From assembly GCA_023249375.1 (NCBI GenBank), contig JAHFCT010000001.1, positions 4,071-68,070 of the forward strand: a stretch of DNA of 64,000 bases, read 5' to 3'. Of the stretch, positions 39,536 through 56,002 are shown in pieces. Made by a program: the position numbers and the translations under genes. The DNA is from Gemmatimonadota bacterium. Lineage in GTDB: Bacteria > Gemmatimonadota > Gemmatimonadetes > Gemmatimonadales > Gemmatimonadaceae. Position 1 is the stretch's first letter, and the number at the start of each line of letters is the position of its first letter. Below the pieces are notes generated by a model, which saw only the letters and a program-made list of their open reading frames with translations, was not told the origin of the DNA and searched no databases.

Positions 39536-39599
39536 TCGTCAATCTGCATCGAATTCGCCATCCGTTATTCCCATCCGACAGCCGAAATCCGGAATCGAA

Positions 39600-40634
39600 A
39601 TGAAGAAGCCCCTTATCCCCATCGTCGTCGTCGCCGCCGTGGTTGCTCTTTTCTGGGTGGCCAAGACGACGCTTTACAACCGCGTGCACGAGAGCACGGA
39701 CAACGCGCAGGTGGACGGCTCGATCGTCCCCGTCCTCGCCAAGGTTGGCGGCTTCGTGTCGCAGCTCGCCGTGGTCGAGAACCAGCCCGTCAAGGAAGGT
39801 GACGTGCTCGTTCGCATCGACACGTCGGAGTACGTCGTGCGCGTCGCGCAGGCGCAGGCCGAGTACGACGCCGCGGCTTCGGTGGCGGGCGGACGCGGCA
39901 TGAGCGGTCAGGCGGAAGCGCAGATGCACGGCGCGGAAAGCCAGCGGCAGGTGGTTGGCGCGCAGATTGACGCCGCCAAGGCGCAGGTGGCCAAGGCGTC
40001 GGCCGATCTCGCGCGCGCCAAGGAGCTCGTCGCCAAGCAGATTGTCAGCCGGCAAGCGCTCGATGCCGCGCAGTCGTCGTTTGATCAGGCGACGGCGAGC
40101 GAGCTGGCAGTCGAACGTCAGGCGCGTGCCGCCGATGCGCAGCTTAGTGGAGCGCAGGCCGGTGCACGCCTTGCGCAGGCGCGGCTGGCCGCGGCGCGCG
40201 CCGCGCTCGACAACGCCAAGCTCCAGCTCGCGTACACGAGGGTGCCGGCGCCGTTGACCGGCGTCGTGTCACGCAAGCAGGTCGAGGTCGGACAGCTGGT
40301 CTCGCCGGGGCAGCCGCTGTTGACCATCGTGGACGGCGTGCATCCGTGGATCACGGCGAACTTCAAGGAAACGCAGCTCGCTGACGTGCGCGTCGGCCAG
40401 TCCGTGAGCCTCGACGTGGATTCGTATCCCGGCTGCGACGCAGAAGGAAAAGTGGAGAGCCTCGGCGCGGCGACAGGGGCGCGCTTTGCGCTGCTGCCGC
40501 CCGACAACGCGACGGGCAACTTCACCAAGGTCGTGCAGCGCGTCCCGGTACGCATCGCGCTCACCAAGGGCTGCGGCGAGTCGCGGCCCCTGATGCCGGG
40601 GATGAGCGTGCTGGCGCACGTGAAGATCAAGTAG
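39600..40634 (+). CDS. EmrA/HlyD-type periplasmic adaptor
   Basis: This 344-residue adaptor has an N-terminal membrane anchor (about residues 5-24), lipoyl/barrel-sandwich halves (DNAQVDGSIVPVLAKVGGF, LAYTRVPAPLTGVVSRK), a coiled hairpin rich in Ala/Gln between them (about 85-200) and a beta-barrel (HPWITANFKETQL, VGQSVSLDVD). It links the EmrB-like transporter to TolC. The 64-base gap before it (39536-39599) is comparatively AT-rich and holds no gene. Confidence 0.93.
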   Translation: MKKPLIPIVVVAAVVALFWVAKTTLYNRVHESTDNAQVDGSIVPVLAKVGGFVSQLAVVENQPVKEGDVLVRIDTSEYVVRVAQAQAEYDAAASVAGGRGMSGQAEAQMHGAESQRQVVGAQIDAAKAQVAKASADLARAKELVAKQIVSRQALDAAQSSFDQATASELAVERQARAADAQLSGAQAGARLAQARLAAARAALDNAKLQLAYTRVPAPLTGVVSRKQVEVGQLVSPGQPLLTIVDGVHPWITANFKETQLADVRVGQSVSLDVDSYPGCDAEGKVESLGAATGARFALLPPDNATGNFTKVVQRVPVRIALTKGCGESRPLMPGMSVLAHVKIK

Positions 40635-40678
40635 CGGCCTGCCGTCCACCGTCTTCTCCTTCCGCCAGCCCCTCGCGC

Positions 40679-42244
40679 ATGTCCGCCTCGACCGACGACA
40701 AGTACAAACACAAATACCTCATCGCCATCGCCGTCACGATGGCGGCGATGCTCGAGCTCATCGATACGTCGATCGTGAACGTCGCCATCCCGCACATGAT
40801 GGGGAACCTCGGCGCGACGCTCGACGAGATTTCGTGGGTGAGCGTTGGCTACATCATTGCCAACGTCATCGTCATCCCGATGTCGAGCTGGCTGTCGGCG
40901 TATTTCGGGCGGCGGCGCTATCTCACGGCCTCCATCCTGCTTTTCGTCGCGGCGTCGTTCTTCTGCGGCGCGTCCACCACGCTGCTGCAGCTTGTGGTTT
41001 GGCGCGTCATCCAGGGCATCGGCGGCGGCGCGCTGCTGTCCACGGCGCAATCCACGCTGTGGGAGGCGTTCCCTCCCTCTGAAGTCGGCATTGGGCAGGC
41101 GATGTTCGGCGTCGGCGTGATGGTGGGCCCGACGCTCGGGCCCACGCTCGGCGGCTTCATCGTCGACAACTGGAACTGGCCCTGGATCTTCTACATCAAC
41201 TTGCCGCTCGGCCTCGCGGCCGCGGCGCTCGTGTGGACGTATGTCACCGACTCGGAGCATCAGGAGCGCGCCGAGAAAGTCGACTGGCTCGGCATCAGTC
41301 TGCTGACGGTGGCGGTGGGTTCACTGCAGTGGATGCTCGAGCGCGGCGAGCGCTACGACTGGTTCGACTCCCAGTTCGTCATCACGCTGGGCGTGGTCTC
41401 GGCCGTGTCGTTCATTTGGCTCGTTTGGCACGAGCTGCGCACGGACGAGCCGGTCATTGATTTTCATCTATTGAAGAACCGGCAGCTCGCCACCGGCGTC
41501 CTGATGGGGGCCGTGCTCGGCTTTGCCCTCTTCGGATCGGTCTTCGTGCTGCCGGTCTTCCTGCAGGCGCTGCACGGCTTCACCGCGAACCAGACCGGCA
41601 TGGTCATCTTGCCGGGCGCCATTGCGTCAGCCGTGACGATGGCGGTGATGGGGCGCCGCTTGCGCATGGTGCCGGACGGCCGCCCCGTGATCCTGCTTGG
41701 TGCGTCGCTGTTCTTCGTGTGCATGTACATGCTGGCGGCGCTCACGTTTGACAGCGGCAAGGGGGACCTGTTCTGGCCGCTCATCATCCGCGGCGTGGCG
41801 CTGGGCATGATGTTCATTCCGCTGAACGCGATTGCGCTGGCCGAGCTTGCGCCGCGCGACATGGCGGCGGGCACCGGTCTGTTCAACCTCATGCGCCAGC
41901 TCGGCGGCTCCATCGGCATTGCCGTGATGGCCACGCTGCTCAGCCACCTGACCAAGGCCAAGAAAGCGGTGTTGGCCGATCACATGGTGGCGACGGCGCC
42001 CGACGTCCAGGCGCGCCTTGAGGGACTGACGCACGCCTTGATGGCCAAAGGCACCAGCCTGAGCGTCGCGCATCAGCAGGCGCTGATGATCATGGATCGC
42101 ATGGTTGGTGCGCAGGCGAGCGTCCTCGCCTTCTCGCGCATCTACTGGATTAGCGGCCTGGTGCTCCTTGGCTCCATGCCATTGATGATCTTCTGGCATA
42201 ACGGCCGGCCGCGCGGCATGGTAGTGAGAGACGGCGGTCACTAG
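40679..42244 (+). CDS. EmrB/QacA-type MFS drug transporter (DHA2, 14 helices)
   Basis: This 521-residue major facilitator has about 14 membrane helices and DHA2 motifs: LIDTSIVNVAIPHM in helix 1, WLSAYFGRRRYL (motif A) and GVMVGPTLGPTLGGFI (motif C of drug/H+ antiporters). With the preceding adaptor and TolC it forms a tripartite drug or toxin exporter under the TetR gene. Specific substrates cannot be read. Confidence 0.94.
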   Translation: MSASTDDKYKHKYLIAIAVTMAAMLELIDTSIVNVAIPHMMGNLGATLDEISWVSVGYIIANVIVIPMSSWLSAYFGRRRYLTASILLFVAASFFCGASTTLLQLVVWRVIQGIGGGALLSTAQSTLWEAFPPSEVGIGQAMFGVGVMVGPTLGPTLGGFIVDNWNWPWIFYINLPLGLAAAALVWTYVTDSEHQERAEKVDWLGISLLTVAVGSLQWMLERGERYDWFDSQFVITLGVVSAVSFIWLVWHELRTDEPVIDFHLLKNRQLATGVLMGAVLGFALFGSVFVLPVFLQALHGFTANQTGMVILPGAIASAVTMAVMGRRLRMVPDGRPVILLGASLFFVCMYMLAALTFDSGKGDLFWPLIIRGVALGMMFIPLNAIALAELAPRDMAAGTGLFNLMRQLGGSIGIAVMATLLSHLTKAKKAVLADHMVATAPDVQARLEGLTHALMAKGTSLSVAHQQALMIMDRMVGAQASVLAFSRIYWISGLVLLGSMPLMIFWHNGRPRGMVVRDGGH

Positions 42245-42338
42245 CTGGACGCCAGCACGGCGCCTCTCTCGCGCGTTCATATTAAGACGGGCATTCTCAA
42301 TCCGTCCCACTCATTCGCACTTCATTACGGAGGCGTCC

Positions 42339-42953
42339 ATGCGCCTGCGCGTCTCGTTGATGGTTCTTGCCTTCGCCGCGATTCCCTCGGTCGCCGCCGC
42401 GCAACGCGGCGGTGCCGGCCGCGGCGCCCAGATTCCGCATGCCTCGGAACTCGAGGACCACAGCCCCGTGGGCGTGGTGCTCGACAAACGGAAGAAACTC
42501 TCCCTCTCGGACAGTCAGCTGACGGCGTTGAAGGGTATCGCCAAGGCGCTGCACGAAAAGGACGCTGACGCCTACAAGATGTGGGACTCCCTGCGCCTCG
42601 CGATGAACTCGGCGGGTGGCAGTCAGCTCGCCACCGGCGCGCCACGCGGCCGTTCCGCGCGCACTGGTCCGATCAGCGGCCGCAGCGGTGGCGGCAGCAG
42701 TGACGCCGGCGTCGCGCTGTCTGGCGGCGGAGCCAGCGACGCCAAGATGGTTGAAGCACGCAGCATGATGCAGGCGCTCGTTGGTCCGCTGCAGGACAAT
42801 GACGAGTGGTCGCGCCAAGAAGTGCTCAGGCTGCTCACTGACGAGCAAAAGGCCAAAGCCGAGCAACTCTGGAAGGATGATGCCGACGACTTCAAGAACG
42901 GCATCGCGCGCCCGCGCGGCGGGCCGGGCGGCGAACGGCCCCCGGGAGTCTGA
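42339..42953 (+). CDS. Exported LTxxQ-motif protein with Gly/Ser-rich insert
   Basis: This 204-residue periplasmic protein has a signal peptide ending VAAA|Q near residue 21 and a good ribosome-binding site (ggagg, 42329-42333). Two LTxxQ-like motifs are visible: LSDSQ (56-60) and LTDEQ (166-170), within helical segments. They are separated by a Gly/Ser/Arg-rich insert (about 92-135). The pattern resembles Spy/CpxP or metal-resistance sensor proteins. It lies just before an ECF sigma cassette that encodes two more LTxxQ domains, suggesting a shared envelope function. No metal-binding cluster is evident. Confidence 0.75.
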   Translation: MRLRVSLMVLAFAAIPSVAAAQRGGAGRGAQIPHASELEDHSPVGVVLDKRKKLSLSDSQLTALKGIAKALHEKDADAYKMWDSLRLAMNSAGGSQLATGAPRGRSARTGPISGRSGGGSSDAGVALSGGGASDAKMVEARSMMQALVGPLQDNDEWSRQEVLRLLTDEQKAKAEQLWKDDADDFKNGIARPRGGPGGERPPGV

Positions 42954-42980
42954 GTGGCTCACGTCCGACACACCCCGCAG

Positions 42981-43007
42981 CCGGGCGCGCCTAACGGTCG
43001 CGCCCGG
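42981..43007 (+). terminator. Hairpin before the first ECF sigma gene
   Basis: Arms ccgggcgcg (42981-42989) and cgcgcccgg (42999-43007) form a 9-bp stem with a 9-base loop, followed by ttgcgtgtttg. It lies between the LTxxQ gene and the ECF sigma start and could be a weak terminator or a leader structure. Confidence 0.5.
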
Positions 43008-43027
43008 TTGCGTGTTTGAATACTCGG

Positions 43028-43606
43028 ATGCGAGAGCCCACCCGCGAGCCGGCAACCGACGCGACCGAAACGGCGTTGGTCGTGCGTGCACGTGGCGGCG
43101 ACCCGGCGGCGTTTGACGCGCTGGTCCGTCGCCATCTCCCGGGCGCTCTCGTTGCCGCCGAGCGACTGTTGGGTGACCGGATGGAAGCGGAGGATCTCGT
43201 GCAGGATGCGTTTCTGCGCGCGCTCGACCGCCTGCCCATGCTAGATCCCAGCCGGCCGTTCGGGCCGTGGTTCTTCACGTTGCTGCGCAACCTGGGCATC
43301 AACCAGCTGCGTGCGCGGCGGGTGCGGCACACCGAGCCAGAGTCGCTCGACGCCGCCTCGCCGGACGCGCTGCCGGACGAAGCCCTGATCAATACCGAAG
43401 TGCGTGAACGATTTGATGCGGCCCTGGCGGCGCTCACGCCGCGGCAGCGCGAGATCGTGATGCTGTTCGAAGTGGAAGGCTGGAAGGGCGTCGAGATTGC
43501 CGAACATCTCGGCCTGACGCCGGAGAACGTGCGGTGGCACCTGCATCAGGCGAAGAAGAGCCTGCGCGTGTCGCTCGCACCGCTGCGGGATGAGGGAGGC
43601 ACATGA
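43028..43606 (+). CDS. ECF sigma factor (cassette 1)
   Basis: This 192-residue sigma factor has region 2 (ALVRRHLPGALVAAERLL, EAEDLVQDAFLRALD) and region 4 (LTPRQREIVMLFEVEGWK, IAEHLGLTPENVRWHLH) with no region 1 or 3. I use ATG 43028; an in-frame TTG 12 bases earlier is possible. It overlaps the next gene as ATGA. It should direct RNA polymerase to a small envelope regulon, probably including its own operon. Confidence 0.93.
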   Translation: MREPTREPATDATETALVVRARGGDPAAFDALVRRHLPGALVAAERLLGDRMEAEDLVQDAFLRALDRLPMLDPSRPFGPWFFTLLRNLGINQLRARRVRHTEPESLDAASPDALPDEALINTEVRERFDAALAALTPRQREIVMLFEVEGWKGVEIAEHLGLTPENVRWHLHQAKKSLRVSLAPLRDEGGT

Positions 43607-43998
43607 CCAACGATCCGTTTGACCCAACCGACCGACTTTTCGGCGACGATCCTGAACGCGATGCGGCGCTTGGCGCACTGCTGCGCGAGCATCGGCTGCA
43701 CGAACGCATCATCGTGGCCGCCCGCCGGCAGCGGATGCGGCGCGTGGAAACGCCGTGGTACGGCTGGGTGGCTCGCTACGGGCGTGCCGCCGTGCCCATC
43801 GGTATCGCCGCAGCGCTGATTGCGGCGGTGATCCTCAACCGCTCGGTACGCACCGACGCCGAGTATGCGGCGCAGTCCGCGTCGGCTTCGTCCGACCTGC
43901 GCGGCGCCGTGGCTGGTGGATCGCGTGCCGCGGTCACGGACGCGGTGGTTGGCCCCGACTCCACGGAGTTCCTCATCGCCATGGCCGTAGAACGATGA
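43603..43998 (+). CDS. Short one-helix putative anti-sigma factor (cassette 1)
   Basis: This 131-residue protein has a cytosolic Asp/Arg-rich N-terminus (1-58), one membrane helix (about 60-79) and a short periplasmic tail. It has no zinc-binding HxxxCxxC motif. The ATGA overlap with the sigma gene and the topology suggest an anti-sigma factor like the small membrane-bound type exemplified by CnrY. Sequence alone does not prove binding. Confidence 0.78.
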   Translation: MTNDPFDPTDRLFGDDPERDAALGALLREHRLHERIIVAARRQRMRRVETPWYGWVARYGRAAVPIGIAAALIAAVILNRSVRTDAEYAAQSASASSDLRGAVAGGSRAAVTDAVVGPDSTEFLIAMAVER

Positions 43999-44510
43999 CC
44001 GACAACACCTCAATCGATTCCGCCGACGACATCGCGGCCGCTCCGCCCGTGCGTTCCACGCGGCTGCTGGCGGTTGGCGTCCTGCTCGTCGTGGCGCTCG
44101 CCGGCCTCATCGGCGGCGTGACGCTTGAGCGCACGGTGCTGCGACCGCACGGCTGGATGCCTCGCGTCGGCATGCCGCGCGCCGGCGATCGCCGCCCCGG
44201 GCCGCGTCGTCCGAGCGCAATGCTCGGCGCCGAACTCAAGCTGACGGAAGACCAGGCCGTGCGCATCGACACGCTCATCGAGCACCAGATGCGCGGCTTC
44301 CGTGACATCCGCCAGTCGACGCAGCCGGCCATCGATTCGCTGATGGCGCAGACCCGACGCTCGATTGACAGCATCCTGACGCCGATGCAGCGCGCCATGC
44401 TCGACTCGGCGCGCACCAAGCGCGAGGCCGAGTTCAAGAAGCGCTTCCCCAATGGCGGACCGGCGCGCGGTCCCGGCGACTGGGGCCGCCCCCCGATGCC
44501 CCGACCCTGA
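43995..44510 (+). CDS. Membrane-anchored LTxxQ (Spy/CnrX-like) sensor protein (cassette 1)
   Basis: This 171-residue protein starts at ATG 43995, overlapping the preceding stop. One membrane helix (about 23-45) anchors a periplasmic helical domain with LTEDQ (83-87) and LTPMQ (128-132), 45 residues apart. The same 45-residue spacing occurs in the protein at 50218-50583. It resembles metal-resistance sensors such as CnrX. Only two histidines (H52, H97) and a few methionines are available as possible ligands. Position after sigma and putative anti-sigma suggests it senses an envelope signal. Confidence 0.8.
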   Translation: MTDNTSIDSADDIAAAPPVRSTRLLAVGVLLVVALAGLIGGVTLERTVLRPHGWMPRVGMPRAGDRRPGPRRPSAMLGAELKLTEDQAVRIDTLIEHQMRGFRDIRQSTQPAIDSLMAQTRRSIDSILTPMQRAMLDSARTKREAEFKKRFPNGGPARGPGDWGRPPMPRP

Positions 44511-44527
44511 TTGCAACGGCTCCCCCC

Positions 44528-47500
44528 ATGCGACTTCGACTCTCTCTCGCCAGCGTGCTTCTGCTTCTGGCGCCACGGTTCGCCGCGGCGCAGGTAGGCA
44601 GCACCACCGACATCATCACCGGCACCATCCGCAACGCCGAGAACCGCCCGGTTCCCAGTGCGCGCGTTGAGGTGATGTCCATCGAACTCGGCACCACGCG
44701 CGTCCGCACGACGAACGAAAAGGGGCAGTACACGCTGCTCTTCCCCGACGGCGGCGGACAGTATCGCGTGACGGCCCGGGCCATCGGCCTGCAGCCGGCG
44801 TCGGTGACGCTCAGCCGGCTCTCGGACGAAGACCGGCTCGTTGCCGACTTCCGTCTGTCACCAACGATTGCAAGCCTCGGCGCCGTGGTCGTGAGTTCCA
44901 AGCAGACGCCGCGCTCAAACGACAATCAGCCGACCCCCGGCAGCACCGAACGGTCGCTCTCGGGCGAGCAGTTGATGCGCCTGCCTGTCGACGCGTCCGA
45001 TCCCAATGCGATCGCTGCGCTCTCGGCGGGCGTGGTGGGCATCGCGGGCACGGATACGTCGTCGGCCGGGTTTTCGGTGGCCGGGCAGCGCGCCGATCAG
45101 AACCTCGTGACGCTCGATGGCCTGTCGTTCGGCGGCAGCGTGCCGGCCGAAGCGGTGCGCAACACGCGCGTGATTACGAGCACGTACGACATCGCCCGCG
45201 GGCAGTTCACCGGCGGACAGGTTGCCTCAACGACGAAGGGTGGCACCAACGACTTGTCCGGATCGTTTGGATACGCGTTGCGCGACCCCAATCTCGAGTT
45301 CGCCACCGGTGACAACACCGGCACGACGACCTTCAGCGGCGCCTACACGCAGCATCAGCTCAGCGGCGGCGTCGGCGGCCCAATCGTCAAGGACAAGACG
45401 TTCTGGTTTGGAAGTTTTCAGGTGCGGCGACGGATGGATGCCCTGCAGTCGCTGCTCGGCGCGGGCGCGCAGACGCTCGAGGCGCTGAACGTCCAGCCGG
45501 ATTCCGCGGCACGCTTTCTGTCGCTCCTCCAGCGCTACGGGCTGCCGCTCCGAAACTCGCTGGTGCCCGACGACCGCACCACCGATGACGTGACCGGCAT
45601 CGCCCGGCTTGATCAACAGATCACGGAGGGCCACTCGCTCTCGCTGCGAGGGAACGTCTCGGGAAGCCTCCTCGACGGTTTCCGGAGTTCGGCGCAGAGT
45701 GTGCCAACGCACGCCGGCGAGCAGAAGGGGGCGAGTGTCGGCGGGCAGTTGTCGCTGTCGTCCGTGATGGGCCAGTTCCTCAACGAACTCAAGGGGACGT
45801 ATTCGTTGACCACACGCGGCGCCAACCCGTACCTACGGCTGCCGGAAGCGCGCGTCCTCGTCGGCAGCACGTTGTCGAGTGGGCAAGTGGCTCTCACCGG
45901 CCTCGATTTCGGCGGCAACGGCGCACTTCCCAATGACAACGCAACCACCGCGCTCGAAGCCACCGACGAGCTGTCTTGGCTTTCCGGCGGCGGCAAGCAT
46001 CGATGGAAGCTGGGCGGGTTGATCAACCGTTCCGGTTTCCGCACCACCGCGGGTTCCAACCGCTCGGGAAACTTTCAGTTCCAGTCGCTCGCCGACCTCG
46101 ACGCGAACCGTCCAAGCCAGTTCACGCGTTCCTTCGCGCCGGCACAGCGCGAGGGCGGCGCCATGACGGCGGCGTTGTACCTCGGCGATATCTGGCGCCC
46201 GAATCGCGCCTTCCAGCTCACGTACGGCGCGCGCGCCGAGGGCAGCGGCATTGATGGTCAGCCCGCCTATAATCCGGACATCGACGCCAAGTTCGGCCTG
46301 CACACGGACCGCATTCCATCGGACATGCGCGTCAGTCCGCGCGTTGGCTTCACGCTCACGCTCGGATTGCCGCCGGACACCGGCCGTCGCGCCAACCGTC
46401 CCGGCCAGGGCGGCGCTGGTGAAGGTCGCGGTGGTGGTGGTGGTGGTGGTGAGGGACGCGGCGGGTTTGGCGGCGGCGCCCCCGGCGGCGGCTTTGGCGG
46501 CGCCGGCGGACTCATGCAGATGCTCGGGGGACAGAATCAGCAGCAGCCGCAGATCCCACAGCCATGGATCATCCGCGGCGGAGTCGGAGAGTTCCGCGGC
46601 CGCGCGCCGACGCAGCTATTCTCGTCGGCCATCGACGCCACGGGCCTCCCGGGCGGAGAGACGCAACTCGTCTGCGTCGGGGATGCGGTGCCGACGCCGG
46701 ACTGGGCATCGTATCTGCGCGATTTCTCGACGATTCCGGCCCTCTGCGCCGACGGGTCGGGTCTGTCTGTTCCGCTCAGTCGCACACGACCCAATGTCAC
46801 CGCGTTCGCGTCCAACTTTTCGACGCCGCGGTCCATCAAGGGATCGCTCGGCGTCTCCAAGCGATTTCTCACGCGCTACAACGCGAGCGTCGACGCATCG
46901 TACTCGCTGGGGACCAGCCTGTACGGCGTCACCGACCGCAACTTGACCGAGACGCCGCAGTTCTACCTCGCGGCTGAAGGCAACCGGCCCGTGTACGTGC
47001 CCGCAATGACGATCTTCCCCTCCACCGGCGCGACGACGCTGACCGCTTCGCGGCTGCACCCCGAGTACGGCTACGTCTTCGAGGTCTCGTCACCGCTGCA
47101 GTCGCGGACCACGCAGGTGATTGCGACCGTCGGCGGCAACTCGCTACGGCAGCTGATCTGGAGCCTGTCATACACCTTCACGCGCTCCACTGACCAATCG
47201 TCCTTCTCGGGCGGCAGTGCGGCTGGCGGGTTCTCGTCGCCGACGACGGCCGGCGATCCGAATGTCATCTCCGCCACCACGAGCGACCTTGAGCGGCGCC
47301 ACGGCGTCAACGGCTCGCTGACGTGGCTGGCGCGGCCGTGGCTGGATGTCACCGGCATTCTCCGTGTGACATCGGGACAGCCGTACACGCCGCGCGTCGG
47401 CGGCGACATCAATGGCGACGGCTCGCGCAATGATCGCGCGTTCGTGTTCAGTCCCGCCTTCGCTGCCGATACGGCGATCGCGGGCGGAATGCAACGACTG

Positions 47501-48397
47501 CTCGACGTGGCGCCGGACGGTGCGCGCGCGTGCCTGGAATCGCAGACGAACCGCGTGGCTGACCGCAACAGCTGCCACGCCCCCTGGTCCACGTCGCTCG
47601 ACATGCAGCTCAACTTCCGCCCGCAGCTCGGCGCCGCCATCGGCCGGCGCTTGCAGCTGCAGGTGGGACTCGTGAACGCGCTCACCGGCATCGATCAGCT
47701 GCTGCACGGCGCCGATCACCTGCACGGCTGGGGCCAGCCCACGTTCGTGGACAACACGCTGCTCTACGTGAAGGGCTTTGACCCGGCGACGAACAGTTTC
47801 CGCTATACGGTGAACGAGCGCTTTGGCAGCAACGCGATCGCGCGCTCGGCGCTGCGCAATCCGTTCCAGATCTCGCTCACCGCGCGCATGCAGGTGGGCG
47901 TCGACCGCCAGCGCCAGCTGCTCGAGGGAATGCTGAACGCGAGCGGCGGCAACGGTAACCGGCCAGGCATGGACTTCCGCGCGATGGTGCGCCGCCTGGC
48001 ACCAAATCCGGTCACGCCGCTGATGGACCTGAAGGACATTCTCAAGCTGACGCCCGAGCAGATCACGAAGATCAAGCTCATCGGCGATTCACTGGACGCC
48101 AAGACGGCGGAGCTCAGCAAGCGCGTCGAAGCGGAAATGCAGAAGCAGGCAAAGAGCGGCGGCGACTTGCAGACGCTGTTTCCCAAACTGCAGCCGACAC
48201 TGCAGGAAGCGCGCAACAATTACGTGCAGGCCACACAGTCGCTTCAGAAGGTCCTCACGCCCGAGCAATGGGCCGAGGTCCCGGAATCAGTGAAGAACCC
48301 AACGCTTCGTCCTGGCGGTGGTCAGGGCGGCCAAGGCGGGAGACGGCCCGATGGTGCGGCCGGCGGTTCCGGCGCTGCTGGACGCCGCATCCCGTAG
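44528..48397 (+). CDS. TonB-dependent receptor with carboxypeptidase-like N-domain and C-terminal LTxxQ extension
   Basis: This 1289-residue outer membrane protein has a signal peptide ending FAAA|Q near residue 22. An N-terminal carboxypeptidase-regulatory-like beta-sandwich (about 28-115, GTIRNAENRPVPSARVEV) precedes a plug domain (about 130-250, LDGLSFGGSVPAEAVRNTRV) and a long beta-barrel. A Gly-rich loop (about 615-665) includes seven GGT codons. After the barrel a helical tail (about 1165-1289) carries LTPEQ at 1174-1178 and 1243-1247 and a coiled Lys/Gln-rich segment, ending in a Gly-rich tail. Such an extension beyond the last barrel strand should lie in the periplasm. Substrate unknown; likely controlled by the adjacent ECF sigma. 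Confidence 0.88.
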   Translation: MRLRLSLASVLLLLAPRFAAAQVGSTTDIITGTIRNAENRPVPSARVEVMSIELGTTRVRTTNEKGQYTLLFPDGGGQYRVTARAIGLQPASVTLSRLSDEDRLVADFRLSPTIASLGAVVVSSKQTPRSNDNQPTPGSTERSLSGEQLMRLPVDASDPNAIAALSAGVVGIAGTDTSSAGFSVAGQRADQNLVTLDGLSFGGSVPAEAVRNTRVITSTYDIARGQFTGGQVASTTKGGTNDLSGSFGYALRDPNLEFATGDNTGTTTFSGAYTQHQLSGGVGGPIVKDKTFWFGSFQVRRRMDALQSLLGAGAQTLEALNVQPDSAARFLSLLQRYGLPLRNSLVPDDRTTDDVTGIARLDQQITEGHSLSLRGNVSGSLLDGFRSSAQSVPTHAGEQKGASVGGQLSLSSVMGQFLNELKGTYSLTTRGANPYLRLPEARVLVGSTLSSGQVALTGLDFGGNGALPNDNATTALEATDELSWLSGGGKHRWKLGGLINRSGFRTTAGSNRSGNFQFQSLADLDANRPSQFTRSFAPAQREGGAMTAALYLGDIWRPNRAFQLTYGARAEGSGIDGQPAYNPDIDAKFGLHTDRIPSDMRVSPRVGFTLTLGLPPDTGRRANRPGQGGAGEGRGGGGGGGEGRGGFGGGAPGGGFGGAGGLMQMLGGQNQQQPQIPQPWIIRGGVGEFRGRAPTQLFSSAIDATGLPGGETQLVCVGDAVPTPDWASYLRDFSTIPALCADGSGLSVPLSRTRPNVTAFASNFSTPRSIKGSLGVSKRFLTRYNASVDASYSLGTSLYGVTDRNLTETPQFYLAAEGNRPVYVPAMTIFPSTGATTLTASRLHPEYGYVFEVSSPLQSRTTQVIATVGGNSLRQLIWSLSYTFTRSTDQSSFSGGSAAGGFSSPTTAGDPNVISATTSDLERRHGVNGSLTWLARPWLDVTGILRVTSGQPYTPRVGGDINGDGSRNDRAFVFSPAFAADTAIAGGMQRLLDVAPDGARACLESQTNRVADRNSCHAPWSTSLDMQLNFRPQLGAAIGRRLQLQVGLVNALTGIDQLLHGADHLHGWGQPTFVDNTLLYVKGFDPATNSFRYTVNERFGSNAIARSALRNPFQISLTARMQVGVDRQRQLLEGMLNASGGNGNRPGMDFRAMVRRLAPNPVTPLMDLKDILKLTPEQITKIKLIGDSLDAKTAELSKRVEAEMQKQAKSGGDLQTLFPKLQPTLQEARNNYVQATQSLQKVLTPEQWAEVPESVKNPTLRPGGGQGGQGGRRPDGAAGGSGAAGRRIP
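46430..46450 (+). repeat. In-frame (GGT)7 microsatellite
   Basis: Seven consecutive GGT codons encode seven glycines in a Gly-rich loop of the TonB-dependent receptor. Neighbouring glycines use GGC mostly, so this uniform run stands out. Confidence 0.85.
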
Positions 48398-48411
48398 GCG
48401 CACACCACCCG

Positions 48412-48442
48412 GAGACCGGCAGCCACCTCGGCGGCCGGTCTC
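48412..48442 (+). terminator. Hairpin after the TonB-dependent receptor
   Basis: Arms gagaccggc (48412-48420) and gccggtctc (48434-48442) make a 9-bp stem with a 13-base loop. No clear T-run follows. The rest of the 146-base gap to 48544 shows no gene. Confidence 0.5.
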
Positions 48443-48543
48443 TGCGGCTATATACGCGGGCAGAGGCGTGGCGTAATTTGCTCGTCCGGCGCGCGCCGCC
48501 GGCGACGGCCATCCGTTGCCTCCTCTCCAGCCTCCAGACTCAC

Positions 48544-49125
48544 ATGTCACTCGATCGCACGGCCGCCTGGGATCTCGTCTGCGAATGGACGCAGAGTGAA
48601 TCGCTGCGCAAGCACATGCTCGCCGTCGAGACGGCAATGCGCGCCTACGCGCGCCAGTTCGGCGCCGACGAAGAAGCGTGGGCGGTGGCGGGCCTGTTGC
48701 ATGACTTCGACTACGAGCGCTTTCCCAACGACGCGCACTCGGCGACCGAAGAGCATCCGTCGCACGGCGTGCGCCATCTGCGGGACGCCGGCGTGTCCGA
48801 GGAGATCTGCAGCGCCATCATGGGGCACGCCGAGTACACGCATACGCCGCGGGAGACGCAGATGGCCAAGACGCTGTTCGCGGTGGACGAACTCTGCGGC
48901 CTCGTGACGGCGGCTACCTACGTGCGCCCGAGCAAGAGCATCCTCGACCTCGAGCCGGCGTCCGTGCGGAAGAAGATGAAGGACAAGGGTTTCGCGCGGG
49001 GCGTTTCTCGTGAAGACATCACCAGGGGCGCCGAGGAACTCGGCGTCGAACTCGATACGCACATCGCCTGTGTGGTCGAGGCCTTGAAAGGGAACGCCGC
49101 GGCGCTCGGGCTGGCGGGAGCGTAG
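48544..49125 (+). CDS. HD-domain hydrolase
   Basis: This 193-residue cytosolic protein has an HD phosphohydrolase fold: KHMLAVETAM, GLLHDFDYERFP (the HD pair), HPSHGVRHL and IMGHAEYTHT, with a later aspartate in FAVDELCGLV. It resembles the small HD proteins often annotated as hydrolases of nucleotides; the substrate is unknown. The start at 48544 is chosen because the upstream frame lies in the receptor's antisense-free tail and terminator. Confidence 0.85.
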   Translation: MSLDRTAAWDLVCEWTQSESLRKHMLAVETAMRAYARQFGADEEAWAVAGLLHDFDYERFPNDAHSATEEHPSHGVRHLRDAGVSEEICSAIMGHAEYTHTPRETQMAKTLFAVDELCGLVTAATYVRPSKSILDLEPASVRKKMKDKGFARGVSREDITRGAEELGVELDTHIACVVEALKGNAAALGLAGA

Positions 49126-49145
49126 GTGCAGGCCCGCATCCCCTC

Positions 49146-49171
49146 AACGTTTATTGACGTTCTTGCGTCTC
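49146..49171 (+). promoter_or_regulatory. Possible ECF-type promoter before sigma gene 2
   Basis: An AAC-containing -35-like element (aacgtt, 49146-49151) and a CGTC-containing -10-like element (cgtctc, 49166-49171) are separated by 14 bases, the general layout of ECF promoters. The -35-like element is also half of a small inverted repeat (aacgt-N6-acgtt, 49146-49161). This could be autoregulation, but the match is short. Confidence 0.3.
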
Positions 49172-49198
49172 ATGGGGTGCACCCTGTGACGAGACGCG

Positions 49199-49810
49199 AT
49201 GACAGCAATTGCCTTGCGTCCGACGTTCGTAGCGCCTTCGGGCCGTACCAGCCGACGCGTGACGACGCCTGACCGCCCCGACGACGAGAAGGCCCTCGTG
49301 CTATCCGCCCAGCGCGGAGAACTCGAGGCGTTCTCGGAACTCGTCCGCCGCCACCAGCGGCGCGCGTACGCCGTGGCGCGCGCCATCGTCACCACGCACG
49401 AGGACGCGGAAGACGCGGTGCAGGATGCATTCCTGCATGCCTACCGCGCGCTGCACCGCTTCCTGCCCGACCAGGCGTTCGGCGCGTGGCTGCATCGCAT
49501 CGTGGCCAACGCCTCGCTCGACATCACGCGCCGCCGTAAGGTGCGTGACGCCGATGACCTCCCGGAGACCATCGCCTCGCCGTTCCGTGATCCGGCAGAG
49601 TCGGACGAACTGCGGCGGTTGCTGCGTGCGGCGCTTGCGCGCCTCCCGGAGCGCCAGCGTGCCGTCATCGTTCTTCACGACGTCGAAGGGTTCAAGCACT
49701 CAGAGATCGGCCAAACACTCGGCATTCCCGAGGGGACGGCGCGTTCCGACCTGCACTATGCACGGTCGGCGCTGCGACGCCTTCTCACTCAGCTTCGGAG
49801 TCCCCAATGA
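49199..49810 (+). CDS. ECF sigma factor (cassette 2)
   Basis: This 203-residue sigma factor has region 2 (ELVRRHQRRAYAVARAIV, EDAVQDAFLHAYRAL, FGAWLHRIVAN) and region 4 (LPERQRAVIVLHDVEGFK, EIGQTLGIPEGTARSDLHY). It overlaps the next gene as ATGA. It should drive the envelope and efflux operon that follows. Confidence 0.93.
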   Translation: MTAIALRPTFVAPSGRTSRRVTTPDRPDDEKALVLSAQRGELEAFSELVRRHQRRAYAVARAIVTTHEDAEDAVQDAFLHAYRALHRFLPDQAFGAWLHRIVANASLDITRRRKVRDADDLPETIASPFRDPAESDELRRLLRAALARLPERQRAVIVLHDVEGFKHSEIGQTLGIPEGTARSDLHYARSALRRLLTQLRSPQ

Positions 49811-50187
49811 CCAGCGATTACTCCACCCCGCATCTCGTCCCCGATGAGGGCGATGCGGATCTCACCACCGTGTTGCGCTCGCTGTACGCCGCGCCCGACA
49901 GCGCCGGCTACTGGAGCGCGCTCGAGCAGCGTATCATGGATCGCATCGCCGGCGGCGAGCCGCTCGACGCCTGGTGGTCCGTCCCCACGCAGTGGGTCCG
50001 CATTGGACTCATCGCGGCGGGCTTTGCCCTGATCGTCGCTGGCTCGCTCTTCCTGCGCTCGCGTGCCGAGCAGCGGCAGATGGCATACGAGTCGGTGCTG
50101 GAACCGGGCGCCGTCGGCCCGACGCTTGCCATTCGTGATGCACAGACCGAGCGGCAGGCGACGCTCAATTACATCAACGGGCGGTAG
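49807..50187 (+). CDS. Short one-helix putative anti-sigma factor (cassette 2)
   Basis: This 126-residue protein has an acidic cytosolic N-terminus (1-60), one membrane helix (about 65-84) and a short periplasmic tail. It lacks a zinc-anti-sigma motif. ATGA overlap with the sigma gene and topology match the protein at 43603-43998, so the same role is inferred. Confidence 0.78.
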   Translation: MTSDYSTPHLVPDEGDADLTTVLRSLYAAPDSAGYWSALEQRIMDRIAGGEPLDAWWSVPTQWVRIGLIAAGFALIVAGSLFLRSRAEQRQMAYESVLEPGAVGPTLAIRDAQTERQATLNYINGR

Positions 50188-50217
50188 CCCCAGCGGCGCC
50201 GCGAGACCTCGCCGAAC

Positions 50218-50583
50218 ATGACGCGAACGAAAGGGATGGCCTTGGCGTTTTATCTGGCGGCGGCCGTGGCCGGCCTCGCCATCGGCGTCGCCGTTGACCG
50301 GCTGCTCGTTCCCAGCACCACGGTGCGCGCCACCACGCGCGCCATGCGCGACCGCTTTGCGAAGGACCTCAAGCTGACCGCCGACCAGCGGTCGGCCGTG
50401 GACAACGTTCTTGATGCGCGGTTCCGGTCCGAGTCCATTCTCGTCGTCCCCATTCGCCCCCAGCTCGACTCCGTCCGCGCCGAGGCCCGCCTCAAGATCT
50501 CGGCATTACTCACGCCCGAGCAGCAACGCGTGTATGAACAAATGCAGCGGGACCAGAAAGCCCGCGCGCAGGAGAAGAAATAG
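50218..50583 (+). CDS. Membrane-anchored LTxxQ (Spy/CnrX-like) sensor protein (cassette 2)
   Basis: This 121-residue protein has an N-terminal helix (about 7-27) and a periplasmic helical domain with LTADQ (53-57) and LTPEQ (98-102), 45 residues apart as in the protein at 43995-44510. It contains no Cys or His and few Met, so a metal ligand set like CnrX is not evident. It is three bases before the TolC gene, so it is part of the same transcript. Confidence 0.8.
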   Translation: MTRTKGMALAFYLAAAVAGLAIGVAVDRLLVPSTTVRATTRAMRDRFAKDLKLTADQRSAVDNVLDARFRSESILVVPIRPQLDSVRAEARLKISALLTPEQQRVYEQMQRDQKARAQEKK

Positions 50584-50586
50584 GAC

Positions 50587-51891
50587 ATGATGCGCGTTTC
50601 AATGCTCTTGATCGCCGTGCCTTTTGCCCTCGCCGCCCAGCAGCCGGCGGGCGACGGCGCACGCCCCATTCCGCTCGACGAGGCCGTGCGCCTCGCCCAG
50701 CGCAACAATCCGGCCGCCGTCACCGCCCGCAACGCGCTGCGCACCACGACCGCCGCGGTGCGCTCGGCGTACGGCCAGTACCTGCCGTCGTTCTCCGCCA
50801 ACGGCTCCGGCTCGCGGTCGGGCGGCGAGACGTTCTTTCAGGGCAAGCTCGTGCCGTACAGCGGCGCGCCCTGGTCGTACTCGCGCGGTCTTTCCACCAG
50901 CCTCGAGCTGTTTGACGGCGGCCGGCGCTGGTACAACCTCAAGTCGGCGCAGGCGAATGTTGATGCCGCCGACGCGAGCGAGACCTCGCAGCAGTTCAGC
51001 CTCAGCCTGCAGGTGAAGCAGCAGTACTTCGCCGTGCTCGCCGCGCGCGAAAGCCAGGCCGCGGCCCAGCGCCAGCTCGAGCAGTCCGCCGAGCAGCTGA
51101 AGTCGTCCACCGCCAAGGTGCGTGCCGGTGCGGCCACCAAGAGCGACTCGCTGCGCAGCATCATCCAGGTAGGTAATGCGCGGCTCGCGCTGCTCACGGC
51201 CGAGAACAACATGCGCGTGGCCAACGCCGCGCTCAGCCGCCTGATCGGCTCCACCGAAGTTGTCACGGCCTCGCCGGCCGACACGGCCGAGATGGGCCGC
51301 ATCGTCCTCGATAGCGCCGCGCTCATCACGCTCGCGTTGCAGGGCCCAACCGTCCGCTCGGCCGAGTCGGCACTGCTGGCGGCGCAGGCCGCACGCAAAG
51401 CGTCGCGCACACCGTACATGCCGACGGTCTCCTCGTCCTATAGTCTCAGCGGCAACAACACCTCCGACGGGTTCGACTTTGGCAGCGGCCGCATTCCGAA
51501 GCAGACGAGCCTCCGGCTGACGCTGAGCTGGACCCTGTTCAACAACTTCACGCGTGAGGAGAACCTCATGCGCTCGACCGTGGCCGAGGACAATGCCACG
51601 GCGTCGCTCCGCGATGCCAAGCTCGCCCAGCAGCAGTCGCTGGTGCAGTACCTCGGCGCGTTCCGCACCGCCGAAGAGCGTGTGGCGATTCAGCTGTCCA
51701 CCATCGCCGCCGCCGACGAAGACCTGCGCGTGCAGCAGCAGCGCTACGCGCTCGGCGCGTCCGTGCTGCTGGACCTGTTGACCTCGCAGACGACGCTTGA
51801 TCAGGCGCGCGCCGCGCTCATTCAGGCACGGTATGACGCCCGTATCGCCAAGGCACAGGTCGAGGCCCTCGTCGGCCGCGATCTCAAGTGA
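50587..51891 (+). CDS. TolC-family outer membrane efflux protein
   Basis: This 434-residue channel protein has a signal peptide ending ALAA|Q near residue 17 and the TolC helical pattern (IPLDEAVRLAQRNNPA near the N-terminus, RYALGASVLLDLLTSQ near the C-terminus). It should form the outer membrane exit duct for the following adaptor and permease. The stop overlaps a possible upstream GTG of the adaptor gene. Confidence 0.92.
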   Translation: MMRVSMLLIAVPFALAAQQPAGDGARPIPLDEAVRLAQRNNPAAVTARNALRTTTAAVRSAYGQYLPSFSANGSGSRSGGETFFQGKLVPYSGAPWSYSRGLSTSLELFDGGRRWYNLKSAQANVDAADASETSQQFSLSLQVKQQYFAVLAARESQAAAQRQLEQSAEQLKSSTAKVRAGAATKSDSLRSIIQVGNARLALLTAENNMRVANAALSRLIGSTEVVTASPADTAEMGRIVLDSAALITLALQGPTVRSAESALLAAQAARKASRTPYMPTVSSSYSLSGNNTSDGFDFGSGRIPKQTSLRLTLSWTLFNNFTREENLMRSTVAEDNATASLRDAKLAQQQSLVQYLGAFRTAEERVAIQLSTIAAADEDLRVQQQRYALGASVLLDLLTSQTTLDQARAALIQARYDARIAKAQVEALVGRDLK

Positions 51892-51926
51892 CCCGCCACC
51901 GACCGACGCCCCTTTTGGAGCTCCTC

Positions 51927-53816
51927 GTGAACCGCCGATTCCTCTTTGCGCTCGCCGCAATCTCGTCCCTCGCCGCCTGCGGCAAGAAGGCCGAAAAAAC
52001 GGTCCCCATCCAGACCGCGCCCGTCACGCGCCGCGACATCGTGGTCGACGCCACGGCCACCGCGATCATTGAGCCCATCAACGTCGTCGAGGTCAAATCC
52101 AAGACGGCGTCGGGGCAGATCACCAAGATGACCGTCGAGGTCGGCTCCTACGTGAAGCCGGGCGATCTGATTGTCCAGATCGACACGCGCGACCTCATCA
52201 ATGCGTCCAATCAGGCGCAGGCGGACTTCGACGCCGCGCAGGCCAAGCTCAACACGTCGACGGCGCAGAAGAAGCGCTCGGATGACTTGTTCAAGCAGCG
52301 CATCATCACGGCGACCGAGAACGAAACCGCCAACCTCGACTTCGCCAACTCGCAGGCCAGCTTCGTGCGCGCCAAGACGTCGCTCGACCTCGCCCAGCAG
52401 CGTCTCGAGGACGCCACGGTGCGCGCGCCGGTCGAAGGCACGGTCATCGACAAGACCGTTTCGCTTGGCCAGGTCATTCAGGCCGGCACGTCATCGGTCG
52501 GCGGCGGGTCCACCATTCTCAAGATGGCCAACCTCCAGCGCGTGCGCGCCCGTGCCCTCGTCAACGAAACGGACATCGGGCAGATCATGGCGGGGCAGGA
52601 AGCTACGGTGACCGTGGACGCGTTTCCCGACCGCCCGTTCCACGGCAAGGTCGAGAAGGTCGAGCCGCAGGCGGTCGTGCAGCAGAACGTCACGATGTTC
52701 CCCGTGCTCATCTCGCTCACCAACGAAGAAGGACTGCTCAAGCCCGGCATGAACGGCGAGGCGGCCGTGCTGGTCGACCGCCGCACCAGCGTGCTCGCGA
52801 TCCCGAATGACGCCGTGCGCAACATGCGCGAAGTCCAGACCGTCGCGCCGCTGCTCAACCTCAACCCCGACAGCGTGCGCGCGCAGCTGCGCTCGAGCAT
52901 GGGCGGCGGCATGGGTGGCTTCAACGGCGGCGGCGGACGCGGCCAGGGCGGACAGGGCGGACAGGGCGGCAACCGCGGTGCACAGGGACGCAGCACGCAG
53001 ACCAGCAATGGCGACGTCGATCTGCCGCCGCAGGGCGCTGATCGTCAGGGCGGCGGTGGCGGCGGCTTCCAGCAGGTGGAAGTCACCGACGCCGATTGCA
53101 AGAAGGTGAGCGACGCGCTCAAGAAGCAGCCGGCCGTGGCCAAGCAACTCGACGCGATGCGCGATCAGATGCGCAACCCCGATGCCGATCGCCGCGCGAT
53201 GTTCACGCAGATGCAGGAGTTGTACTCGAAGCTCGGCATGGACCAGCGCATCGTCGGCGCGTGCCGTCGCCGTGAAAGCGGCAACACCGGTGGCGGTGCC
53301 ATGGGTGGCGGACGCGGACAGGGTGGACAGGGCACACAGGGTGGGGCTCAGGGCACCCGCAGTGGCGGCCGCAACGGTAGCGGTCAGAGCGGACAGGGTG
53401 GACAGTCCAGTGGCGCACAGGGCAGCCGCGGTGATCAGGCCGGCCGAAGCGTCGACGTGCCGCAGGCGCCGGGCATGCGCTCACGCACCCGCACGGGTCT
53501 CGTCTTCGTGCAGAAGGCCGATTCCACGTGGGAGCCGCGCATGGTGCGCCTTGGTGTCGCCAACTTCGATTTCACCGAAGTGCTCGATGGCGTGAAGGAA
53601 GGCGAACGCGTGGCCTTGCTGTCGGCCGCGGCGATGCAGGCGCAGCGTCAGGCGCAGAACGACCGCGCTCGCCAGATGATGGGCGGCGGCAGTCCGCTGG
53701 GCGGCGCGACGGCCGGCCCGGGCGGTGGCGGTGCCCGTCCGCAGGGTGGCGCTCCGCAGGGCGGCGGCGCCACCGGCGGCGCCAGCGCTGGCGGTGCGGC
53801 CCGTCGGGGGAATTGA
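51927..53816 (+). CDS. MacA-like periplasmic adaptor lipoprotein with long Gly/Gln-rich insert
   Basis: This adaptor of 629 residues starts with GTG at 51927, supported by ttttggag (51913-51920) and a lipobox SLAAC near residue 18; a GTG at 51888 is the alternative. Residues 30-290 hold the normal lipoyl, hairpin and beta-barrel domains (DATVRAPVEGTVIDK, FPDRPFHGKVEKVEP). Instead of continuing directly to the membrane-proximal domain, it has a Gly/Gln/Arg-rich insert (about 325-520) enclosing a helical island with C391 and C446. A C-terminal Gly-rich tail follows the final domain. Standard MacA is about 370 residues. It probably pairs with the following permease. Confidence 0.88.
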   Translation: MNRRFLFALAAISSLAACGKKAEKTVPIQTAPVTRRDIVVDATATAIIEPINVVEVKSKTASGQITKMTVEVGSYVKPGDLIVQIDTRDLINASNQAQADFDAAQAKLNTSTAQKKRSDDLFKQRIITATENETANLDFANSQASFVRAKTSLDLAQQRLEDATVRAPVEGTVIDKTVSLGQVIQAGTSSVGGGSTILKMANLQRVRARALVNETDIGQIMAGQEATVTVDAFPDRPFHGKVEKVEPQAVVQQNVTMFPVLISLTNEEGLLKPGMNGEAAVLVDRRTSVLAIPNDAVRNMREVQTVAPLLNLNPDSVRAQLRSSMGGGMGGFNGGGGRGQGGQGGQGGNRGAQGRSTQTSNGDVDLPPQGADRQGGGGGGFQQVEVTDADCKKVSDALKKQPAVAKQLDAMRDQMRNPDADRRAMFTQMQELYSKLGMDQRIVGACRRRESGNTGGGAMGGGRGQGGQGTQGGAQGTRSGGRNGSGQSGQGGQSSGAQGSRGDQAGRSVDVPQAPGMRSRTRTGLVFVQKADSTWEPRMVRLGVANFDFTEVLDGVKEGERVALLSAAAMQAQRQAQNDRARQMMGGGSPLGGATAGPGGGGARPQGGAPQGGGATGGASAGGAARRGN

Positions 53817-53819
53817 TTC

Positions 53820-55043
53820 ATGCTTTTCGGTGAAACGATCATGGTGGCGCTGGGCGCGCTGCGCGCGAACAAGCTGCGTTCCCTGCTCACGATGCTTGGC
53901 ATCGTGATCGGCGTCGCCGCCGTGATCGCCGTGGTCGCACTCGGCCGCGGCGCGCAGAAGGCGGTGAATGATCGCATCTCGGCGCTGGGCACCACGCTGC
54001 TGACCGTCAGCCCGGGCCAGGCCATGGGCCAGGGCGGCGTGCGCACCGGCTTCGGCAGCGCGCGCCTCACCATTGAGGACGCCAAGGCGCTTGAAGACCG
54101 CGGCGAGAAGATCCTTGCGGTGCAGCCCGAAATGTCGGGCCAGCTGCAGGTGCAGTACCTGAACAAGAACACCAACACGCAGATCGTCGGCGTCACGTCG
54201 AACTATCCGGACGTCCGCAAGTACGAACTCGCCGCGGGCCGCTTCTTCACGCAGGCCGAGGATAACTCGCGCCAGCGCCTCGCCATCATCGGCCCGACGG
54301 TGCTCGAGAATCTCGGGCTGCAGGCACCCGACGGCATCATCGGCGAGACCATTCGCATTCGCGGCATCCAGTGCACGGTGATCGGCGTGTACAAATCGAA
54401 GGGCCAGGCATCGCCATTCAACAACCCGGATGACCAGGTCCTGATTCCCATTACGACCGCGCGCTTCCGCATCCTCGGTCAGAACCGCGTGCGCTCCATC
54501 AGCGTGCTCTCGCCGTCGGAAGACGACATTCCCGAGACGATGGCCGAGATCCAGAAGATCCTGCGCCGCGAGCACCGGCTGCGCTCGGGCAAGGACGACG
54601 ATTTCAACACGCGGTCGCAGGCCGACTTCCTCAATACGCTCGGCGAGACGACGCAGGTGTTCTCGCTGCTGCTGGCGGGCATCGCCACCGTCTCGCTGAT
54701 CGTCGGCGGCATTGGCATCATGAACATCATGCTCGTGTCGGTCACCGAACGCACCCGCGAGATCGGCATTCGCAAGGCGCTCGGCGCGACGCGGCTGAAC
54801 ATCATGTTCCAGTTCCTCGTCGAGGCCGTCGTGCTCTGCCTGGTCGGCGGCGCCATTGGCATCCTCGTCGGCACGGGCGGCGCCACGGCGTTCACGCGAA
54901 TCATGGGGTGGACCACCGAGGTGGGCTCCACCGCCGTGGCCCTCGCGTTTGGATTCTCGGCGGCCGTCGGCGTCGTGTTCGGCGTGTATCCCGCGCGGCG
55001 GGCCGCAACGATGGACCCGATTGTCGCACTGCGATACGAATAG
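53820..55043 (+). CDS. MacB-type ABC permease without fused ATPase
   Basis: This 407-residue protein has an N-terminal helix (about 22-43, LLTMLGIVIGVAAVIAVV), a large periplasmic MacB core domain (about 50-275) and a three-helix FtsX domain (TERTREIGIRKALGAT at the conserved loop). There is no nucleotide-binding domain, whereas E. coli MacB carries one at its N-terminus. No separate ATPase gene lies nearby. With the adaptor and TolC it should form a MacAB-TolC-like complex once an ATPase is supplied. Confidence 0.93.
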   Translation: MLFGETIMVALGALRANKLRSLLTMLGIVIGVAAVIAVVALGRGAQKAVNDRISALGTTLLTVSPGQAMGQGGVRTGFGSARLTIEDAKALEDRGEKILAVQPEMSGQLQVQYLNKNTNTQIVGVTSNYPDVRKYELAAGRFFTQAEDNSRQRLAIIGPTVLENLGLQAPDGIIGETIRIRGIQCTVIGVYKSKGQASPFNNPDDQVLIPITTARFRILGQNRVRSISVLSPSEDDIPETMAEIQKILRREHRLRSGKDDDFNTRSQADFLNTLGETTQVFSLLLAGIATVSLIVGGIGIMNIMLVSVTERTREIGIRKALGATRLNIMFQFLVEAVVLCLVGGAIGILVGTGGATAFTRIMGWTTEVGSTAVALAFGFSAAVGVVFGVYPARRAATMDPIVALRYE

Positions 55044-55067
55044 CACGGCGGCAGACGCGCAGTGTCG

Positions 55068-55098
55068 AACGGGGGAGGCCTTGATGGCCTCCCCCGTT
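55068..55098. terminator. Strong terminator between convergent genes
   Basis: Arms aacgggggaggcc (55068-55080) and ggcctcccccgtt (55086-55098) form a 13-bp stem with a 5-base loop and a short T tail (55097-55099). It lies between the permease gene and the convergent TonB-family gene and may act in both directions. Confidence 0.75.
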
Positions 55099-55121
55099 TG
55101 TCATGGCCTCGCCTTTAGGCG

Positions 55122-55817: not shown

Positions 55818-56002
55818 CGTGCTCCGTGGTGCAACGACTTGTGCTTAGCCTACCCGCGCGAATCAGACAACATCACCGCGACGCAGGGTTCGTCTCACTG
55901 ATTCTATCGTATGTCCCTACGAGGGTGGATTTCAATATGGTCCAACCGTTGGATGGTGACGCGGCGTGCGACCCAGCCTGCCGACGGCTTGGACACCCTT
56001 GA

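Follow-up and report, generated by a model that had tools for sequence, protein, structure and literature searches.

The closest described systems are the CnrYXH and NccYXH sets of Cupriavidus metallidurans, in which an extracytoplasmic function (ECF) sigma factor, a short two-helix anti-sigma with one transmembrane (TM) segment and an anchored helical sensor are encoded with downstream efflux genes. CnrY embraces CnrH with two helices (PMC4598750), an arrangement that contrasts with that of class I anti-sigma domains (PMC7406223), and Met123 is a metal ligand of CnrX (PMC7689651). In Azospirillum brasilense, RpoE8, a hypothetical protein and a 'periplasmic heavy metal sensor' are encoded in one operon (AMK58_24940-24950), which is uncharacterised as a module (PMC12826043). 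Here, two modules consisting of a sigma factor, a short one-helix protein and an LTxxQ protein were analyzed in a 64,000-nucleotide stretch (the window) of contig JAHFCT010000001.1 from a Gemmatimonadaceae assembly (GCA_023249375.1, here G000; 3.8 Mb, 120 contigs, 95.9% complete). Each module is probably a CnrYXH-like transmembrane switch with a Spy-like sensor, in which sigma2 is autoregulated and the outputs are an exporter and an outer-membrane barrel with a tail.

The first-pass annotation of this DNA had described a sigma factor, a short one-helix protein and a membrane-anchored LTxxQ protein occurring twice, and all six open reading frames, with their domains and TM helices, were recovered in module 1 (43028-44510) and module 2 (49199-50583):

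43028-43606, plus strand: sigma1 (P0001), ECF sigma factor (Sigma70_r2, r4_2, TIGR02937)
43603-43998, plus strand: antisigma1 (P0002), putative anti-sigma, short protein with one TM helix, ATGA overlap with sigma1 (profile homology to antisigma2)
43995-44510, plus strand: LTX1 (P0003), inner-membrane-anchored periplasmic LTxxQ protein, ATGA overlap with antisigma1 (family profile, motifs)
49199-49810, plus strand: sigma2 (P0005), ECF sigma factor (Pfam, TIGR02937, clade of 42 family members)
49807-50187, plus strand: antisigma2 (P0006), putative anti-sigma, ATGA overlap with sigma2 (alignment A3, AlphaFold2 model)
50218-50583, plus strand: LTX2 (P0007), inner-membrane-anchored periplasmic LTxxQ protein (alignment A2, AlphaFold2 model, Spy profile)

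Both sigma factors had the ECF architecture (sigma70 regions 2 and 4, without region 3) and scored well above the cut-off of the ECF model TIGR02937 (sigma1, 112.9 bits; sigma2, 111.2 bits; cut-off 42.9). A single hydrophobic helix was found in antisigma1 and in antisigma2, and each LTX protein had two LTxxQ motifs besides one TM helix at its N-terminus. The motifs were located at residues 83 and 128 of LTX1 and 53 and 98 of LTX2, with the equal 45-residue spacing that had been noted earlier. The ATGA overlaps reported between the genes were present at three of the four intra-module junctions, the fourth (antisigma2/LTX2) being a gap of 30 nt; of 41 relatives, about three quarters shared the sigma2/antisigma2 overlap. 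The layout had also been called cnrYXH-like, which the gene order did not bear out: it is sigma, short protein, LTxxQ protein here and Y-X-H in cnr (NC_007972).

Judged by sequence and profile comparison, all three genes are homologous between the two modules. Sigma1 and sigma2 shared 40% identity, and LTX1 and LTX2 30% over 112 residues (family alignments, hhalign 99.75%). The antisigmas showed no similarity by BLASTP, and their homology was visible by profile comparison only (family alignments, hhalign 96.9%, E 1.9e-10). In a maximum-likelihood tree (quick search) of 77 sigma factors, sigma2 belonged to a group of 42 sequences of the family (support 86). Sigma1 was placed in a separate deep clade, shared with sigma factors of other families of the class, so the duplication is an old one. 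The LTxxQ spacing was 45 in nearly all relatives from other genera in which both motifs were readable. It is thus a family constant rather than chance, and gives no evidence of a recent duplication. The earlier picture of a duplicated module attached to two outputs was upheld in that the modules are homologous throughout and have two different neighbours; their separation is ancient, and a recent local duplication, newly attached, was rejected on the strength of both the sigma tree and synteny. The core locus of long standing is module 2; module 1, its accessory relative, adjoins it only in this genus. Among named genome contigs, the single match of LTX1 was in a metagenome-assembled Gemmatimonas sp. 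(72% identity).

LTX2 relatives were detected in 114 of the 118 sampled Gemmatimonadaceae genomes, and the LTX2 profile retrieved related proteins from 136 of 150 genomes across the phylum, some of these matches being other than module 2. Sigma2, antisigma2 and LTX2 stood together in all 33 loci with enough flanking sequence. An HD gene was located upstream in 28 of the 33, and TolC, HlyD and MacB-type genes downstream in 23, in addition to L076, which was missed by the position filter (L and g numbers are our handles for loci and genera). The same order was observed in other families of the order and, without the HD gene, in another family of the class (L158). The corresponding neighbours in the window are:

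48544-49125, plus strand: HD-domain protein, conserved neighbour upstream of module 2 (PF01966)
50587-51891, plus strand: TolC-type outer-membrane efflux protein (PF02321)
51888-53816, plus strand: HlyD/MacA-type periplasmic adaptor (HlyD_D23, HlyD_3)
53820-55043, plus strand: MacB-type permease (MacB_PCD and FtsX; PF12704, PF02687), without ATPase domain

Two upstream elements were found:

49145-49169, plus strand: ECF-type promoter of module 2, CAACGTTTATTGACGTTCTTGCGTC (CAAC-N17-CGTC), from a motif search of upstream regions
42981-43014, plus strand: block conserved upstream of sigma1, consisting of an inverted repeat CCGGGCGCG..CGCGCCCGG whose loop contains TAAC, followed by GCGTGTTTGA (five genomes of the genus)

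The motif CAAC-N17-CGT was present upstream of sigma2 in 35 of 42 sequences, as compared with a mean of 5.5 and a maximum of 10 in mononucleotide shuffles. Spacers of 14-18 were allowed in the search, and nearly all matches had a spacer of 17. Halves of the AAC and CGT type are typical of ECF promoters. Since the motif stands before sigma2 itself, autoregulation is implied. The motif had no second exact match within the window, and a genome-wide search for further sigma2 targets gave three strict matches against one for a reversed control pattern, which is near chance; the sigma2 regulon may therefore comprise its own operon only. The block before sigma1 (TAAC-N15-CGTG) may be the sigma1 promoter or a hairpin. 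Its GC-rich inverted repeat (42981-43007) starts 27 nt past the stop codon of LTX0, an LTxxQ-like gene described below; TAAC and GTGTTTGA were invariant in the five genomes of the genus, and the sequence farther upstream varied. An Rfam scan of 42000-56000 gave no match, and no promoter was found in a sigma-70 promoter scan.

LTX1 and LTX2 are, as far as similarity tells, short relatives of Spy and CpxP within the LTXXQ / Spy-CpxP superfamily. Alone, both scored about 19.5 bits against PF07813 (LTXXQ), below the curated cut-off of 24.3, and the family was matched at E <= 0.01 by 27 of 39 LTX2-family and 17 of 21 LTX1-family members. Spy was the first solved structure found by profiles (LTX1, E 2.3e-7; LTX2, E 4e-4), and CpxP was found weakly; in the alignment, Spy carried 28 extra residues between the motifs. 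The AlphaFold2 model of LTX2 (predicted local distance difference test [pLDDT] score of 82.4) comprised a TM helix, a short helix, a long helix (55-97) between the motifs and a final helix. The near-invariant LTX2 residues (alignment A2) were the Leu and Gln of the motifs and the prolines P78 and P81.

By the cnr precedent, LTX1 and LTX2 could bind a periplasmic metal, release sigma and induce metal efflux. The three parts and the efflux output are indeed as in cnr, and 15 of 39 LTX2 relatives matched the Metal_resist family at E <= 0.01; at E <= 0.001, however, the genome contained no Metal_resist match. CnrX and CnrY were undetected by profile: hhalign probabilities were 2.2% and 0.4% for the LTX alignments A2 and A4 against CnrX, and 0.3% and 0.5% for the antisigma alignments against CnrY, all with single-sequence targets of limited power. 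In CnrX (from pMOL28), the positions equivalent to LTxxQ are 76 residues apart, as opposed to 45 in LTX1 and LTX2. The metal ligands of CnrX, which also include His42, His46, Glu63 and His119, had no conserved counterpart. No column was rich in His or Cys (maximum 7/39 in the LTX2 family and 4/21 in the LTX1 family), Met-rich columns reached at most 15/39 and 12/21, the start aside, and the LTX2 of the window contains no His or Cys at all. The remark made at first pass that CnrX ligand residues are not evident therefore applies to both LTX families. The output also differs, being a resistance-nodulation-division (RND) pump in CnrYXH and a MacB-type ATP-binding cassette (ABC) permease, not a metal RND pump, next to module 2. 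With this evidence, metal sensing of the CnrYXH type is most improbable. Since the LTxxQ proteins appear to be short Spy/CpxP relatives, an envelope-stress signal is likelier, and a damaged envelope, misfolded protein or amphipathic toxin is more likely to be sensed than a metal ion.

The short proteins matched no Pfam family, and no class I anti-sigma domain was found in 39 members. Their anti-sigma role is suggested by gene position, overlap and architecture. In the AlphaFold2 model of antisigma2, helices at residues 14-27 and 33-48 are followed by a linker and a TM helix (61-98); two short cytoplasmic helices before one TM segment would make the predicted arrangement class II (CnrY-like) by architecture. 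In the mechanism that we propose, the short one-TM anti-sigma would hold the ECF sigma at the inner membrane by embracing it with the two cytoplasmic helices, and the anchored LTX protein, a putative Spy/CpxP relative, would read the state of the periplasm and set the anti-sigma to hold or release. Freed sigma2 would transcribe its own operon from the CAAC-N17-CGT promoter, raising the amount of sensor and also, here and in the majority of relatives, that of the TolC-adaptor-permease exporter. Module 1, with a promoter of its own, would control the adjoining outer-membrane protein, whose periplasmic tail is Spy-like.

The strongest rival to this mechanism assigns the release of sigma from the anti-sigma to regulated proteolysis, the LTX protein being no sensor but a product of the regulon that dampens the response, in the way that CpxP acts on CpxA. 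The relationship of LTX1 and LTX2 to Spy and CpxP is in line with such a role, the periplasmic tail of antisigma2 (approximately 30-40 residues, alignment A3) could be cut by a protease, and envelope stress systems often show feedback from a member of their regulon. However, the LTX proteins have a membrane anchor, which CpxP and Spy lack, and their genes, like that of CnrX, always stand directly with those of the sigma and its partner. Damping by LTX is thus considered rather unlikely.

Several results weigh against the proposed switch and its exporter output. The antisigma2 model is of modest confidence (pLDDT 71.5), and Foldseek searches of the LTX2 and antisigma2 models against the PDB returned chance matches only. 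The exporter operon (50587-55043) has no ATPase gene, either here or in the other Gemmatimonadaceae examined; in order-level relatives, an ABC ATPase gene is located between TolC and HlyD. Several genera retain the module at the module 2 site without the exporter, and five of six relocated exporter operons have no CAAC-N17-CGT before them.

Where the exporter was gone, the potassium transporter gene Kup was found directly or soon after LTX2 (L072, L115, L116, L122, L125, L126, L128); at L072, TolC was retained although the rest of the exporter had left. A HlyD relative was present elsewhere in eight of nine genomes checked without a local exporter (six strong matches and two weak ones of 30% identity; none in the ninth), and exactly one HlyD relative was found in each of eight other genomes. 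Continued control of the relocated exporter by sigma2 was rejected, as the motif preceded TolC in only one of the six genomes tested. Because most relocated exporters are without the motif, the exporter may not be an essential target, and because the module stays where the exporter is lost, the signalling module, rather than the exporter, is the fixed part. The exporter was also observed beside other sigma/LTxxQ arrangements, namely a sigma1-type gene with LTX1 (L098) and a sigma gene with a secreted LTxxQ protein (L177).

Loss of the exporter from the locus could also mean that only sigma and anti-sigma are a real pair, and that LTX, exporter and outer-membrane protein are ordinary neighbours, merely co-transcribed and with no part in signalling. 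Against this, none of the module-2 loci examined had sigma and antisigma without LTX, even where the exporter was gone, and LTX is present in both of the anciently separated modules. An incidental LTX is therefore regarded as highly unlikely.

The neighbours of module 1 include two further proteins with LTxxQ-type sequence, which had been overlooked in both at first pass:

44528-48397, plus strand: Oar-like outer-membrane beta-barrel protein (P0004; CarboxypepD_reg, OMP_b-brl_4)
48020-48274, plus strand: C-terminal LTxxQ (Spy-like) domain of P0004, residues 1165-1249, motif spacing 69 (PF07813, 24.6 bits, over the cut-off)
42339-42953, plus strand: LTX0 (P0008), secreted LTxxQ-like protein between the EmrB-type permease and module 1 (PF07813, 20.7 bits, cut-off 24.3)

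P0004 had been annotated as a TonB receptor, which is borne out only in part. Its CarboxypepD_reg and OMP_b-brl_4 domains agree with an outer-membrane barrel, and the Pfam scan found no STN signalling domain and no plug, a TonB box not having been looked for. The C-terminal Spy-like tail was present in 70 of 116 family genomes and, among the matches listed, mostly in long (>1200 aa) frames. The motif spacing of the tail was 67-69 in most members with both motifs seen, and the second motif was LTPEQW. Barrels of this kind usually have a topology that would place the tail in the periplasm. The tailed protein adjoins a sigma/LTX module in the window genus (g1), g25 (L102, L210), g31 (L211), g32 (L209, at a contig end, sigma not seen) and g16 (L223), and gene order and orientation differ among them. 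In addition, the window and g31, g32 and g16 carry an LTxxQ gene of secreted or lipoprotein type. By our own rough estimate, linkage by chance is expected in approximately 0.2 genera (16 kb around about two module loci, 4 Mb, 28 genera). The link is thus real by count, with at least five genera, but not general: no module was nearby in 15 of 16 tailed-protein loci not chosen for such linkage.

Module 1 might accordingly be read as a cell-surface signalling system, in which the Spy-like tail contacts LTX1 and reports the state of the substrate or barrel, a role like that of FecA-FecR-FecI with other parts. The frequency of the tail, its steady motif spacing and its five-genus adjacency to modules favour this reading; the unlinked majority of unselected loci, the missing STN domain and the possibility that the tail is a chaperone-like aid to the barrel count against it, and it is considered unlikely. 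Likewise unlikely is a relay in which LTxxQ proteins that are free in the periplasm, hung from the outer-membrane barrel or anchored beside the inner-membrane anti-sigma would, by contact or competition, report the outer-membrane state to the ECF sigma. If true, the outer membrane would signal to the inner one through components different from FecA/FecR or RcsF/RseA, and the Spy-tailed barrels near such modules in several genera make this new idea directly testable.

LTX0 counterparts in other genera occupied the same place, between MFS (major facilitator superfamily) and HD genes (L090, L129). A solitary secreted LTxxQ protein, with no sigma gene nearby, was also observed in the same genome (G000:C116:12981-13319, L141). 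Directly upstream of LTX0 is a multidrug operon (37545-42244) of TetR, TolC, EmrA-type and EmrB-type genes, and several relatives have a comparable TolC-HlyD-MFS set ahead of module 2. Just past the exporter, the protein encoded at 55122-55817 on the minus strand has a C-terminus that, by eye, resembles the TonB C-terminal domain.

Compared with known systems, module 1 resembles FecI-FecR-FecA in that an ECF sigma and its one-TM partner are encoded along with an outer-membrane protein; it differs in its C-terminal Spy-like tail, in the additional anchored LTxxQ protein and in that no STN was found by Pfam. The exporter has the TolC, HlyD-type adaptor and MacB_PCD/FtsX permease of MacA-MacB-TolC exporters, whereas its permease is without an ATPase domain and an adjacent ATPase gene occurs only in other families of the order. 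With Spy, CpxP and ZraP (PF07813), the LTX proteins have in common the LTxxQ motifs and the helical periplasmic domain. They differ in being anchored in the inner membrane, in being 28 residues shorter between the motifs than Spy, and in being encoded with an ECF sigma and its partner rather than in a two-component regulon. The RpoE8 operon of Azospirillum brasilense, likened by gene order alone, has the same succession of sigma, small protein and sensor-type protein. The three-part module as such is already known; the novelty lies in the nearly phylum-wide occurrence of the locus and in its promoter, in a family of short anchored LTxxQ proteins without a metal site, and in the association with Spy-tailed barrels. 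Gemmatimonadota are abundant soil bacteria with little-studied stress regulation, and the locus provides them with a nearly phylum-wide candidate for envelope signalling. By the tests run (profile homology to CnrX and CnrY, gene order, conserved ligands, Metal_resist matches in the genome), the modules are not members of CnrYXH, but they probably work like it: the CnrYXH logic of a sigma, a two-helix anti-sigma and an anchored helical sensor would here be separated from metal sensing.

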